Of a stretch of 20,145 nt of DNA, positions 15,419 through 20,145 are shown one piece after another. The translations under genes were made by a program, and so were the position numbers. The DNA comes from a virus. The stretch lies in the IMG/VR virus record IMGVR_UViG_3300046465_000025, positions 1 to 20,145 of that record, one strand, 5' to 3'. The notes under the pieces are model-generated. The model ran no database searches, was not told where the DNA came from, and saw nothing but the letters and a program-made list of their open reading frames with translations. Each line of letters opens with the position of its first letter. The first letter of the stretch is position 1.

Positions 15419-17145
15419 TCATCTTTAAAAAGATTCGATGGAAGAATTTCCTCTCTACGGGGAACAATTTCACCGAAGTTGATATTGCCTCTAACAAGAC
15501 AAATTTAATTGTAGGTGAAAATGGAGCAGGAAAGTCTACTATCTTGGATGCCCTAACATTTTCTTTGTTTGGAAAACCATTCCGAAAGATTAATAAACCG
15601 ATGCTAGTCAATAGCATTAACGAAAAAGATTGTTTAACTGAGATTGAATTTAGTATCGGTAGAAATAATTTTAAAGTAGTGCGAGGTATCAAACCAAACA
15701 TCTTTGAAATCTATTGCAATGATCAAGTATGGAATCAAGAGAGCACAGTAGTAGATCAACAAAAAAACCTTGAGCAGAACGTGCTTAAGATGAACTATAA
15801 ATCATTCACTCAAATTGTTGTATTAGGTTCATCAACGTTCGTTCCATTCATGCGTTTACCTGTTGTTCAACGCCGTGAAATTATTGAAGATATTTTGGAT
15901 ATCCAAATCTTCTCTACAATGAATGTCCTACTAAAGGATAAAATTCGTGAGAACAATAATGAACTTAGAGAATTTGATTACCAATTAGACATTCTAAAAG
16001 AAAAGATTGAGATCCAAAAGTCTTATCTTCTTGACCTTGATAATAAAAACAAGGCAGACATTGTAAAGAAACAAGAAAAGATTCAAGATCTTTTGGAAGA
16101 TGAAAATAAAAGTCATCTTTCAATTGAACAGTTTAATCTTTTAAATGAAGAACTTAACAAAGATATAGAAAAGTTTTCAAAATCTTCAGGAAAACTTAAA
16201 CAACTTAACACTTATCTTATTAAGTTGAGTTCTAAATTAAGTACATGTAAAAAAGAACATAAATTTTTTGAAGACAATCATGTATGTCCTACATGTACTC
16301 AAGAACTTTCTGAGCAATTTCGTGAAGATAAGATCTCATCTGGAAAGAATAAACTAGATGAGTTGACTCTAGGATATAATGAAATCCTTGCTGCTATTGG
16401 TGAGGAGGAAGTTCGTTTCAATAAATGGAATGAATCTTCTACACAAATTACCAATAACAATAATAAGATCTCTCAATTTAATTTTTCAATTAATCAAATT
16501 CACAAATCAATTAGTGAAGTTGAGCGAGAGATCAAAGAACTAGAGTCTGGTGGCGGGGACAAGAAAGAAGCATACTCTAAGTTGCAGTCGCAGGTAAATG
16601 AGAAGAAAGAACTTTCATCTAACTTATCTGAATCTAAAAAAGATAAAGACACACTTAGTGTTGCTTCTCAACTCCTAAAAGATAATGGCATCAAGAGTAG
16701 AATCATTAAAAAGTATTTGCCTGTAATGAATAAACTGATTAATCAGTATCTTCAAGGCATGGACTTTTATGTAAACTTTACTCTCGATGAAAACTTTGAG
16801 GAAACTATCAAGTCTAGATTTAGAGATCAATTTTGTTATGCATCATTTAGCGAAGGTGAGAAAGCAAGAATTGATATCGCACTTCTATTGACTTGGAGAT
16901 CAGTTGCAAAATTGAAGAACAGTGTTGATACTAATCTTTTAATACTGGATGAAATTTTTGATGGATCACTTGACCAAACAGGATCATCTGATCTTGGATG
17001 GATCTTGCGAAACTTTGATGATACAAATAGAGTCTTTGTTATTTCCCATAAAGAAAGTATGAACGACAAGTACGAAAGAACACTCAACGTAGAGAAAGTC
17101 AAGAACTTCTCTGTGATCCGAGAGACAGTTTCGGAACTGGACTAA
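15415..17145 (+). CDS. 46: Recombination endonuclease subunit gp46 (Rad50/SbcC-like)
   Basis: This 576-aa SMC-like ATPase is the partner of gp47 (T4 gp46: 560 aa). The N-terminal ATPase half carries Walker A GENGAGKST at residues 34-42 and the Q-loop region ending in a MNYKSFTQIVVLGSSTF block. Two long coiled-coil arms (about 170-280 and 300-430; rich in K, E, L, N) flank a zinc hook, CPTC at 291-294. The C-terminal half has the signature FSEGEKARIDIALLL (S479), Walker B LLILDEIFDGSLD (D512, E513) and the H-loop VFVISHKES. All motifs are intact. The start overlaps the DUF3110-like gene by ATGA. A terminator stem begins within its stop codon. Confidence 0.96.
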   Translation: MIIFKKIRWKNFLSTGNNFTEVDIASNKTNLIVGENGAGKSTILDALTFSLFGKPFRKINKPMLVNSINEKDCLTEIEFSIGRNNFKVVRGIKPNIFEIYCNDQVWNQESTVVDQQKNLEQNVLKMNYKSFTQIVVLGSSTFVPFMRLPVVQRREIIEDILDIQIFSTMNVLLKDKIRENNNELREFDYQLDILKEKIEIQKSYLLDLDNKNKADIVKKQEKIQDLLEDENKSHLSIEQFNLLNEELNKDIEKFSKSSGKLKQLNTYLIKLSSKLSTCKKEHKFFEDNHVCPTCTQELSEQFREDKISSGKNKLDELTLGYNEILAAIGEEEVRFNKWNESSTQITNNNNKISQFNFSINQIHKSISEVEREIKELESGGGDKKEAYSKLQSQVNEKKELSSNLSESKKDKDTLSVASQLLKDNGIKSRIIKKYLPVMNKLINQYLQGMDFYVNFTLDENFEETIKSRFRDQFCYASFSEGEKARIDIALLLTWRSVAKLKNSVDTNLLILDEIFDGSLDQTGSSDLGWILRNFDDTNRVFVISHKESMNDKYERTLNVEKVKNFSVIRETVSELD

Positions 17146-17168
17146 GGGACCTAACGGTCCCTTTTTTT
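17144..17168 (+). terminator. Rho-independent terminator overlapping the gp46 stop
   Basis: A perfect 8-bp stem, AAGGGACC (17144-17151) with GGTCCCTT (17156-17163), a TAAC tetraloop and a T7 tract (17162-17168). It starts at the second base of the gp46 TAA (17143-17145). The inner 7 bp equal those of the gp23 terminator. Confidence 0.92.
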
Positions 17169-17202: not shown

Positions 17203-19287
17203 ATGCAAAATCAAGAAATCAAAGGCAACCTTGCTAAACTGCTTGCTACTGAGAACCTGCTTGTAGAGCATCGCAAGGTCAGTACTGCTAGTTTTGATGT
17301 TGATGGTCGTGTCCTTACACTACCTAAATGGGACAAAGCATCCAGCACAGTGTATGACTTGTTAGTTGGTCATGAAGTTGGACATGCTCTGTACACTCCT
17401 GTATGGAAAGGTTTTGATTGCCCTAAAGATTATGTAAACGTAACTGAGGATGCACGTATTGAAAAACTTATGAAGCGTAGATATCCTGGATTACGTAAAT
17501 CTTTTTACAATGGATATGCCGAACTACATGACAGCGACTTCTTTGGAATTGATGGAGAAGACCTCAATACATTTAAATTAATTGATCGTGTTAACCTCTA
17601 CTTTAAAATTGGTTTCAATTCAATTGATATTGAATTTACTCCAGAAGAAAAAGTATTAGTAGACGAAACTGAAGATACTGAAACGTTTGAGCAAGCAGTT
17701 GCTGTAGCAGAAAAACTTTGGGCACTTGCTAAAGAACAGCAGAAAGAACTTGAGAGTCTTGCAAATGTTCCTCAGTCTGGTGGAGATGGTGGTGGAACAA
17801 CATCAGAAATGAAGAGTGATGAAACAGGTTCTGATAAGATGACTCATGAAGAAATGTTGGAAGAAGCAGAGCGTAGAGAAAGTGAGAATGATGCTTCCCC
17901 ATCTGGTGGTGACATCAATACTTCAGATACTCAACAAAACTTTGATGACTCAACTGCAGACTTGAATAGCGAAGGTTATTCTAGTTCCAGTGTATATGTT
18001 AATATTCCACGTGTTGATCCTTCCAACTATATTGTTGATTGGAATGTAATTCACGATTGGATTGCTTCCAATGCTGATAAAGATGAAGATTCAGATACCT
18101 ACTATGACCATGTAGACAATTTGTATCGTGAATTTAAAAATTCTATTACCAAAGAAGTAAGTTATTTGGTAAAGGAATTTGAATGTAAAAAAGCAGCAGA
18201 CTCTTACGCCAGAGCACAAACCTCACGCACTGGTGTGTTAGCAACAGATCGCCTTCACACATACATGTACAATGAAGATCTATTCAAGAAAGTAACTATC
18301 ATACCTGAGGGAAAGAATCATGGTATGCTTTTCTTGCTTGATTGGTCAGGGTCTATGGCACATGAAATGCTGGCTACTATCAAGCAACTAATTCTTCTTA
18401 CTAATTTCTGTAAAAAAGTTGGCATTCCATTTGAGGTATATGCTTTTACTAATGAATGGATCGTAGCAGAACGTGCTATAAATTGTGTTAACTATTCAGT
18501 GGACTACGAGAAACCTACTGAAGGAACTATGACGGTCAGCAAAGATTACTTCAGACTGATGAATATTATTTCGTCTCGTTCTTCCACTAAACAATATGAT
18601 ATTCAATGTAAGAATATTTTTAGAGAAGTGTATGGCATGCTTTATTACTGTGCGTACAATCCCACACCTGGAATGGGACTATCAGGAACACCTTTGAATG
18701 AAGCTATTGTAGTGATGTCATCAGTTGTTTCTAAATTCAAAAAACAGACTGGATGCCAAAAGGTAAATCTTTGCGTCCTTACTGATGGTGAAGCATGTAT
18801 GTCATCCTATGGTGCTCGCATGTATCAAACGGCATACGATACTGAGACGATTCGTTCAAAACGTATCGATAGTTATAATGTGATCTTACGTGACACCACT
18901 ACAGGTATGGTTTACAAAAAGAACCAGGAGTATACTAATGTTCTTATTCAGAATCTCAAAGATCGTAACCCTGGTTGCAATGTCCTTGGGTTTCGTTACA
19001 TAGGATCTGGTGGACTTTCTAATTTCTATAACAGTTACTGTAGCGGTGGTAAGTTTGATCTTGTTCAAAAACAATGGAAGAAAGAAAAATCCGCTATACT
19101 CCCAGACCCCATTGCCTTCAGTTCCCTCTATGTAATTTCATGTAAAACTATTGAGATCGATGAAAACGTAATGGATGTCACGCCTGGAGCATCTAAAGTC
19201 GCAGTTAAGTCAGCATTGAACAAGATGCTGAACAAGAAAAAATCCAGCAAAAAAATCCTTAGTTCGTTCATTAAACACGTTTCTTGA
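17203..19287 (+). CDS. VWA-domain protein with HEVGH metallopeptidase-like motif (CobT-like)
   Basis: A 694-aa protein; I start at ATG 17203, because the in-frame TTG at 17167 lies in the terminator. Residues 1-165 contain GHEVGHALYTP (HEVGH at 57-61) followed by NVTEDARIEKLMKRRYPG, where Glu82 could be a third zinc ligand. About 190-260 is an acidic, glycine- and serine-rich linker. About 370-560 is a VWA domain with a complete MIDAS: D380-x-S382-x-S384 (LLDWSGSM), T496 in LSGTPLNEA and D528 in VLTDGE. The same layout of acidic linker plus VWA occurs in CobT, the cobaltochelatase subunit that pairs with the AAA+ CobS, and a CobS-like gene lies next but one. The HEVGH region may be a true peptidase domain or a structural remnant. 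Cytoplasmic; no signal peptide. Confidence 0.85.
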   Translation: MQNQEIKGNLAKLLATENLLVEHRKVSTASFDVDGRVLTLPKWDKASSTVYDLLVGHEVGHALYTPVWKGFDCPKDYVNVTEDARIEKLMKRRYPGLRKSFYNGYAELHDSDFFGIDGEDLNTFKLIDRVNLYFKIGFNSIDIEFTPEEKVLVDETEDTETFEQAVAVAEKLWALAKEQQKELESLANVPQSGGDGGGTTSEMKSDETGSDKMTHEEMLEEAERRESENDASPSGGDINTSDTQQNFDDSTADLNSEGYSSSSVYVNIPRVDPSNYIVDWNVIHDWIASNADKDEDSDTYYDHVDNLYREFKNSITKEVSYLVKEFECKKAADSYARAQTSRTGVLATDRLHTYMYNEDLFKKVTIIPEGKNHGMLFLLDWSGSMAHEMLATIKQLILLTNFCKKVGIPFEVYAFTNEWIVAERAINCVNYSVDYEKPTEGTMTVSKDYFRLMNIISSRSSTKQYDIQCKNIFREVYGMLYYCAYNPTPGMGLSGTPLNEAIVVMSSVVSKFKKQTGCQKVNLCVLTDGEACMSSYGARMYQTAYDTETIRSKRIDSYNVILRDTTTGMVYKKNQEYTNVLIQNLKDRNPGCNVLGFRYIGSGGLSNFYNSYCSGGKFDLVQKQWKKEKSAILPDPIAFSSLYVISCKTIEIDENVMDVTPGASKVAVKSALNKMLNKKKSSKKILSSFIKHVS

Positions 19288-19312
19288 CTTTACGGACTAT
19301 ATACTGTATAAT
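19284..19312 (+). promoter_or_regulatory. Sigma70-type promoter for the 171-aa gene
   Basis: TTGACT at 19284-19289, a 17-base spacer, and a perfect TATAAT at 19307-19312. The -35 overlaps the stop of the VWA gene. The ATG at 19338 follows 25 bases after the -10. Confidence 0.75.
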
Positions 19313-19337
19313 TATACCAATCACGGACATCCTCAAA

Positions 19338-19853
19338 ATGAGCAACACAATCTCTAACATCCTCAAAGAAACAAACAAAGACTTTTCAACTACAAAGAAA
19401 AAAAAGCAGACCTACATGAGAATTGTTACCGAAGCTTTGGATTCTCAAGTGAGAAGAAATGATGAGTCAGTAAAACTGATGGGTGTTACTGATTTAGTCC
19501 AGAGAGACTACGGTGGTTACCTTTTGAGCATTACCAAAATGTATTCTCTAGAACAAGGTGTAGTTAAAAAGCGCATTCAGGATAACATTTCTGATTGGTT
19601 CTGTTCCCATAAAGATGACAAAGTATTTAACAAGTACAGAGCAAAACTTCCCATGCTTTTTAAAACAGAATCTTCTGTAGGTGATGTGCCAGAAGTAGAA
19701 CCAGTAGTGGAGCAAGTTGTGGAACCAGTAGTGGAGCAAGCAACTGTTTCTCCGTATGCTGCTGATATTAATTTTGTTGCTGAACTAAAAGCAATGGGTG
19801 TCACTTCTTACAAGTCAGATCCATCGTCAAACAAACTAGAGATCCAGTTCTAG
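19338..19853 (+). CDS. Hypothetical protein, 171 aa, between VWA and CobS-like genes
   Basis: I start at the ATG at 19338 (MSNTISNILKETNKDFSTTK), downstream of the promoter; the frame extends up to a TTG at 19284 inside that promoter, which is not credible. The N-terminal ~115 residues are helical and basic (KKKKQTYMRIVTEALDSQVR, later YLLSITKMYSLEQGVVKKRI). A low-complexity linker of two EPVVEQ repeats follows (about 121-134). A short C-terminal module, FVAELKAMGVTSYKSDPSSN then KLEIQF, ends it. No catalytic motif is visible. Its own promoter and terminator make it a single-gene unit. Its position suggests a possible adaptor or substrate of the VWA/AAA+ pair, which is inference only. Confidence 0.75.
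   Translation: MSNTISNILKETNKDFSTTKKKKQTYMRIVTEALDSQVRRNDESVKLMGVTDLVQRDYGGYLLSITKMYSLEQGVVKKRIQDNISDWFCSHKDDKVFNKYRAKLPMLFKTESSVGDVPEVEPVVEQVVEPVVEQATVSPYAADINFVAELKAMGVTSYKSDPSSNKLEIQF
19698..19740 (+). repeat. Two direct copies of a 19-base repeat, period 24
   Basis: GAACCAGTAGTGGAGCAAG occurs at 19698-19716 and again at 19722-19740, exact in both copies. It is in frame (period eight codons) and encodes the repeated EPVVEQ linker of the 171-aa protein. The exact base identity implies a recent duplication. Confidence 0.9.
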
Positions 19854-19865
19854 AACTGCACACTG

Positions 19866-19888
19866 ACCTCCCTCACGGGGGGTTTTTT
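19866..19888 (+). terminator. Rho-independent terminator after the 171-aa gene
   Basis: ACCTCCC (19866-19872) pairs with GGGGGGT (19877-19883, one G-T pair) around a TCAC loop, followed by a T6 tract at 19883-19888. It lies 12 bases after the gene's stop codon. Confidence 0.9.
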
Positions 19889-19892
19889 AGTA

Positions 19893-19898
19893 TATAAT
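19893..19898 (+). promoter_or_regulatory. -10-only promoter for the CobS-like gene
   Basis: A perfect TATAAT lies four bases after a terminator T-run and 23 bases before the ATG at 19922. No -35 hexamer is present at 16-18 bases upstream, where the terminator stem lies. The layout copies that before the VWA gene. Confidence 0.5.
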
Positions 19899-19921
19899 AA
19901 CTACATCAACACAAGGCACCG

Positions 19922-20145
19922 ATGAAGTCCGAACTTACTACAGACCAAATCGTTTCTTATCTTTCTGAAACTTATGGTAGTGACATCACGGCAGATCAAA
20001 TTCGTTCTGCCGCAACACATTTCAATGTTTCTTACCCCACTGCAGTCAAGCGCATGTTGCAGTACAAGTCTGGGTATGGCACTTGGAGTCTGACTGTTCA
20101 AGAAAAACTTGAAAAAACTTATGAGGCTCCTTCAGCACCTGAAGA
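19922..20145 (+). CDS. cobS: CobS-like AAA+ ATPase, N-terminal fragment (3'-partial)
   Basis: The frame runs open to the right edge (74 complete codons). It begins MKSELTTDQIVSYLSETYGS and contains ITADQIRSAATHFNVSYPTA, then VKRMLQYKSGYGTWSLTVQE, and a linker EAPSAPE. The middle reads like a small helical DNA-binding or adaptor module. From memory this N-terminus is that of the cyanophage gene annotated cobS, named after the AAA+ subunit of aerobic cobaltochelatase (cobalt insertion in vitamin B12 synthesis). The ATPase motifs lie beyond the window, so the call depends on recognising the N-terminus and on the CobT-like neighbour. The phage gene may not act in B12 synthesis. It has its own -10 promoter behind a terminator. 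Confidence 0.65.
   Translation, partial: MKSELTTDQIVSYLSETYGSDITADQIRSAATHFNVSYPTAVKRMLQYKSGYGTWSLTVQEKLEKTYEAPSAPE

Follow-up and report, generated by a model that had tools for sequence, protein, structure and literature searches.

A core gene pair of T4-like cyanophages as a candidate AAA+/VWA remodeling machine with its own metallopeptidase domain

The stretch of DNA analyzed here (IMG/VR record IMGVR_UViG_3300046465_000025, positions 1 to 20,145; hereafter, the window) is 20,145 bases long and comes from a T4-like phage that is kin to marine cyanophages. Near its end lie a gene for a protein that joins a predicted zincin-like metallopeptidase domain to a VWA domain and the start of a gene for a CobS-like AAA+ protein of the MoxR class. 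We consider it moderately probable that the two proteins form an AAA+/VWA remodeling machine with a working zincin peptidase that is used in the replication phase. That the pair works like MoxR-VWA systems is well supported. What the analysis shows is the conserved motifs, the predicted zincin and VWA folds, the pairing of the genes, their site in a replication module, the lack of late-promoter motifs, and the failure of the proteins to reach the CobS and CobT cut-offs. The machine idea itself is not new (Iyer et al. 2021, PMC7824862). What is new here is a test between two published views, the covariation of D83 with the HExxH motif, the apparent loss of that motif in cellular CobT, and evidence from promoter motifs and gene context.

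What are the implications of such a machine? In T4-like cyanophages, cobS is classed among the core auxiliary metabolic genes and is read as a viral control on the supply of B12 and nucleotides. Should the pair be a protein-remodeling protease, two marine viral genes of very high abundance are misread as B12 genes. The published views conflict: in one, the VWA protein was “mistakenly annotated as a peptidase”; in the other, such proteins form a metallopeptidase-vWA-MoxR machine. The present data favor the second. The original prediction had likewise preferred a remodeling or protease pair to a B12 chelatase; in agreement with it are the zincin fold, the MIDAS (metal ion-dependent adhesion site), the neighboring AAA+ gene, and the lack of CobN. 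The features of the pair are as follows.

17203..19287, + strand: zincin-VWA protein, 694 residues, ATG start, from the open reading frame (ORF) and its translation; PHROG 459 “peptidase”, viral CobT-like protein
17203..17736, + strand: N-terminal zincin-like metallopeptidase domain, residues 1-178, from the predicted fold and PDB matches
17371..17385, + strand: HEVGH putative zinc-binding motif, residues 57-61, from conservation in relatives
17443..17463, + strand: TEDARIE helix, residues 81-87, including E82 and D83, from column counts and a profile match to the cellular CobT helix
18313..19146, + strand: VWA domain, about residues 371-648, from structural matches to NorD and the MDN1 MIDAS domain
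18340..18354, + strand: MIDAS DxSxS, D380-S382-S384, with T496 at 18688-18690 and D528 at 18784-18786; invariant in alignments A1 and A3
19922..20145, + strand: start of the CobS-like MoxR-class AAA+ gene, 74 residues and then the contig end; phrog_249

The ORF and its translation confirm the starting observation that HEVGH and a complete MIDAS lie in one protein, two genes ahead of a CobS-like start. A TTG start at 17167 would add 12 residues and is not needed. The protein matches phrog_459 (E 1.9e-249; 463 phage records). When the PDB was searched with a sequence profile, no true relative turned up, and Pfam gave only noise (Peptidase_M41, E 0.12), so membership is argued from PHROGs, profiles, and fold.

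There are four lines of evidence for the proposed machine. First, the motifs are conserved. HEVGH occurs in 80/80 first-round relatives, which were collected with peptide patterns that did not contain it. H57, E58, H61, E82, D83, and five MIDAS residues are invariant in 20 proteins with identity down to 29%, and residues 54-87 are enriched in invariant columns (13/63; hypergeometric p 1.7e-6). On the evidence of the alignments, the HEVGH and MIDAS motifs are not due to chance. Among viral relatives, the N-terminus is readable in 210, and each of these has HExxH (154/154 T4-like, 31/31 pelagiphage-type, and 25/25 SSU5-like); the T4-like set includes 74 from a scan with VGHEVGH as one of two patterns, and the other sets were gathered without it. 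Glu82 had been proposed as a possible third zinc ligand, but it is not supported as the likeliest one. D83 is present in 227/230 HExxH-bearing proteins and is nearly missing from the corresponding alignment columns of the other group's 137, whereas E82 is retained in 135/137 proteins of that group, which lacks HExxH. E58 is invariant in the HExxH-bearing proteins (230/230), a set that was sorted by HExxH itself and from which no T4-like, pelagiphage-type, or SSU5-like relative fell out. Because D83, and not E82, vanishes together with HExxH, D83 is probably the better candidate for the third ligand, and E82 looks structural. The covariation thus singles out H57, E58, and D83 as the deciding residues.

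Second, both domains have recognizable predicted folds. In a search with the full-length model, the list was filled by VWA matches, so the N-terminal 178 residues were folded separately with AlphaFold2 (predicted local distance difference test score 88.7; predicted template modeling score 0.83). The best 19 PDB structural matches of this model are all zinc metallopeptidases. Z-scores were 7.8 for ZMPSTE24 (the best), 6.8 for selecase, 6.4 for ArdC, 6.0 for PprI, and 4.7 for Wss1, and jannalysin, BepA, and BlaR1 are also among the 19. HEVGH (residues 57-61) falls within predicted helix 48-64, so the protein has the HExxH-bearing helix of a zincin and, in a predicted model with a best Z below 8, the zincin fold. 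This predicted fold is convincing because all hits are of one kind and HExxH lies in the expected helix. The M48 peptidases and minigluzincins (ZMPSTE24, selecase, and jannalysin), ArdC, PprI/IrrE, and Wss1 share the N-terminal fold and HExxH helix, but none was matched by sequence and none of the matched chains has a VWA fusion. For the VWA part, NorD (in complex with NorQ) and midasin (MDN1) give the best structural matches, through their VWA and MIDAS domains, respectively (Z 14.1 each), and both belong to AAA+ systems of the MoxR class; a VWA fold with an intact MIDAS (DxSxS, T, and D) is what a VWA co-chaperone should have. NorQ-NorD and midasin share this fold and MIDAS arrangement, and have AAA+ sequence relatives of the phage protein, but no peptidase domain was matched in either. 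Cobaltochelatase CobT structures (9uka to 9ukh and 21vu) were found by sequence and are not among the fold matches listed. In Pseudoalteromonas phage XG4 (L089:5902-8159, unannotated), the zincin (HEVSH...EDIRIE) and VWA-like (DFSWS) parts are separate adjacent ORFs, so the two domains can be split.

Third, the AAA+ gene is a constant neighbor. The complete CobS-like AAA+ protein has 358 residues (contig L001, 5281-6357; AAA_5 E 1.1e-18), and the same contig encodes the zincin-VWA protein with 100% identity. The AAA+ gene adjoins the zincin-VWA gene in 149/149 testable T4-like loci, as expected for a VWA co-chaperone; it lies downstream within ≤250 bp in 99/149, and in 14 more the two reading frames slightly overlap. 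Cyanophage record counts by group name are identical for the two genes (365/61/24). The co-occurrence expected at the outset therefore holds across the T4-like loci but may not extend further afield: staphylococcal phage K and Acinetobacter phage Bestia have a distant CobS-like AAA+ gene with no annotated VWA partner within 6 kb (for phage K, the absence was also checked by motif). By sequence, the phage AAA+ protein is matched by PDB CobS (E 4e-18), and CbbQ/NorQ are among its relatives. Midasin, a single chain with six AAA+ modules, was considered as the closest AAA+ relative and rejected: its E of 6e-48 sums repeats, and the best repeat shown scores ~40 bits versus 69 for CobS. The CobS-like proteins of Roseobacter phage CRP-810 and phage T5S1, at ~530-620 residues, are much longer than the cyanophage form, and their genes (L327:1827-3680 and L331:950-2545) stand ahead of a CobT-like gene.

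Fourth, the genomic context and promoter motifs bear on timing. In T4-like genomes, gp46/47 and the clamp genes flank the pair (neighbors gp47/46 and gp45/44); L001 continues into sliding clamp and clamp loader genes, as judged by resemblance to the annotated relative Sf-CH3. In other lineages, the pair is near DNA ligase, DnaE, primase, or DNA polymerase, and in Gordonia, Tsukamurella, and DSL-LC01 phages its neighbors are all hypothetical. A late-like [AC]TAAATA motif stands 32-45 bases 5′ of six structural-region genes (1743, 4378, 6087, 6958, 8190, and 10143). All such sites ahead of genes in the window are on the + strand and none on the − strand, and none is ahead of either gene of the pair in the window. 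Among relatives, 2/172 have the motif 5′ of the VWA gene and 2/169 have it 5′ of cobS, which is background level. A −10-like hexamer is found 5′ of cobS in 141/169 relatives, versus ~20% expected. Because the late motif is at background and the −10-like hexamer is common, the sequence evidence points to early or middle expression of the pair rather than a role in virion assembly.

How might the pair work? The machine would consist of the 358-residue MoxR-class AAA+ motor and a VWA co-chaperone with a zinc metallopeptidase domain of its own. The AAA+ ring would couple to the VWA domain, the MIDAS metal of which may grip an acidic residue, either in the target or in the ring, and ATP hydrolysis would drive remodeling of the target. 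The zincin domain, through H57, E58, H61, and probably D83, would then cut the target, mere binding being less likely. The machine would be made early or in the middle phase and its target would be a host protein or one of replication or recombination. The assembly of a ring, the peptidase activity, the timing, and the substrate are the parts that we infer. A literature search, with most subscription journals outside its coverage, brought up no experimental study of the phage pair.

The B12 subunit CobT appears to be a relative of the phage protein that lost the protease site. Between the phage-family profile and cellular CobT, the alignment (E 2.4e-6) spans the TEDARIE helix, which is paired with DAVETARIEALG. 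SSU5-type proteins connect the groups: besides a match to Pfam CobT (E 2.1e-37), they show one to the phage “peptidase” family over the HExxH region (E 1.3e-5), and they retain HEVAH. Cellular CobT is without HExxH in 80/80 sphingomonad proteins and 48/49 other alphaproteobacterial proteins. The single HExxH-bearing exception adjoins an integrase, DUF3987, DUF3150, and an AAA+ gene, and is therefore placed on a mobile element. Cellular CobT clusters with HEAGH-bearing Cobavirinae/CRP-810 proteins in an unrooted VWA tree with some long branches (support 96/94), a grouping that fits loss of the site in CobT. One tentative possibility, which we rate well below an even chance, is that a replication-phase AAA+ metalloprotease of mobile elements, common to tailed phages and conjugative plasmids, is ancestral, and that cellular CobST is a descendant that lost its zincin site on recruitment to cobalt insertion. 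A module of an AAA+ protein, a DUF3150 protein, and a VWA protein with HEAGH and FDDVQME is present on the IncHI2 conjugative plasmid pGD27-37 (L384:3049-7693), and a like three-gene module is on an alphaproteobacterial mobile element (L383). The system had been suggested to be phage-specific, which is not supported in view of the similar module on conjugative plasmids.

Several observations count against a working protease used in replication. HExxH has been lost, with the VWA domain kept, in nickie-like Pseudomonas phages (SEIAK and SEISK), in Stenotrophomonas phage ANB28 (REVST), and in one Acinetobacter plasmid (QEVAK), a related Acinetobacter plasmid retaining HEVAH; cellular CobT likewise keeps its VWA domain without HExxH. 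The AAA+/VWA function can therefore be parted from the active site, and the peptidase site is dispensable in some relatives. Free loss of HEVGH had been named as grounds for abandoning the idea; the motif is never lost in the T4-like/pelagiphage family, but is lost in these three remoter phage or plasmid lineages and CobT. The zincin Z-scores, all below 8, would be weak if taken alone. Neighborhood and promoter arguments are indirect, and several non-T4 lineages have the same gene order, ligase-CobT-CobS-DnaE, so that not all are independent. Finally, zinc binding, peptidase activity, and complex formation are predictions only.

There are four competing explanations. The pair is unlikely to be a virion-assembly chaperone with structural-protein processing, the role that Iyer et al. 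2021 (PMC7824862) proposed for a pair in group 2.2 jumbo phages, a MoxR AAA+ protein and a vWA protein with a metallopeptidase at its N-terminus. By description, the domain plan is the same, a vWA cochaperone fused to an N-terminal metallopeptidase and adjoining a MoxR AAA+ gene, and a MoxR-vWA pair is reportedly required for the tails of Acidianus two-tailed virus (PMC7824862). However, the pair described here is a core pair of ordinary-size T4-like cyanophages and pelagiphages, lies in a replication/recombination module, and lacks late-promoter motifs. In addition, the available portions of published virion proteomes describe no such protein, although their tables were not compared gene by gene and S-CREM2 is without cobS.

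It is distinctly unlikely that the pair is a cobaltochelatase helper, a viral CobST that hijacks host CobN and lifts B12 for nucleotide synthesis, with the “peptidase” label being wrong. This is the published view of Liu et al. 2021 (PMC8651126), who called the “peptidase” annotation mistaken. The homology is real: an AAA_5 motor and a large VWA protein are common to the phage pair and CobNST, TEDARIE has its aligned counterpart in the ExxRxE helix of CobT, PDB CobS matches the phage AAA+ protein as noted above, and the AAA+ protein scores 63.5 bits against TIGR01650 (CobS). However, the NCBI equivalog cut-off for that family is 558.55 bits, and the zincin-VWA protein has no match to TIGR01651 (CobT; cut-off 759.05 bits), whereas a Sphingomonas pair used as a positive control passes both (CobT, 838.8 bits; CobS, 599.4 bits). 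Moreover, the viral proteins keep HExxH and D83, which cellular CobT does not, and cellular CobT works with CobN. The proposed search for CobN was carried out and supports the prediction. CobN (PF02514) is absent from seven relatives, two of them ~193 kb, although the records may be fragments and a host CobN is possible. It occurs in 2/50,697 phage records, neither of them a cyanophage, so the same-genome CobN of a CobNST system was not found. The family is present in the cyanobacterial control, which suits a helper of host CobN, but the same kind of pair is found in E. coli and Salmonella phages as well as on a plasmid of E. coli, a species whose control genome lacks the CobN family. Information on haloarchaeal virus cobST was taken from the published paper only. 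Pseudomonas phage Y13 has a near-complete CobN homologue (OQ572414.1 16274-19960; 51% identity) in an unannotated 67-kb record; it could be a true phage gene or host sequence.

Metal insertion or maturation of the NorQ-NorD type is improbable. Here, the AAA+/VWA pair would open a metalloenzyme such as ribonucleotide reductase, and HExxH would only carry or orient the metal. The joint-best VWA match to NorD and the CbbQ/NorQ relatives of the AAA+ protein speak for it, but the NorD chains match the VWA part only, and a purely metal-holding site would not need the invariant E58. Lastly, a mobile-element protease that disables a host defense or restriction protein early in infection or transfer is very improbable. 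In its favor are the antirestriction protein ArdC among the top structural matches, the presence of a similar AAA+/HExxH-VWA module on the IncHI2 plasmid and the integrase-bearing element, and the absence of the late-promoter motif. Against it, PADLOC gave no defense-family match, the neighbors are replication genes, and near-universal core status in T4-like cyanophages is atypical for such genes.

The remaining features of the region concern the gene between the pair. The intervening 171-residue protein had been suggested as an adaptor, a role that was rejected because the protein is not conserved (4/50,697 phage records); it probably lies outside the machine. In the window, structural genes are followed by UvsW, gp55, gp47, and gp46, and then by the three genes of interest, with these additional features.

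17144..17163, + strand: terminator-like hairpin between gp46 and the zincin-VWA gene
19338..19853, + strand: 171-residue protein, ATG start, poorly conserved; weak phrog_18622
19284..19312, + strand: sigma-70-type promoter-like site, TTGACT-17-TATAAT, 11/12, 5′ of the gene for the 171-residue protein; a consensus match only

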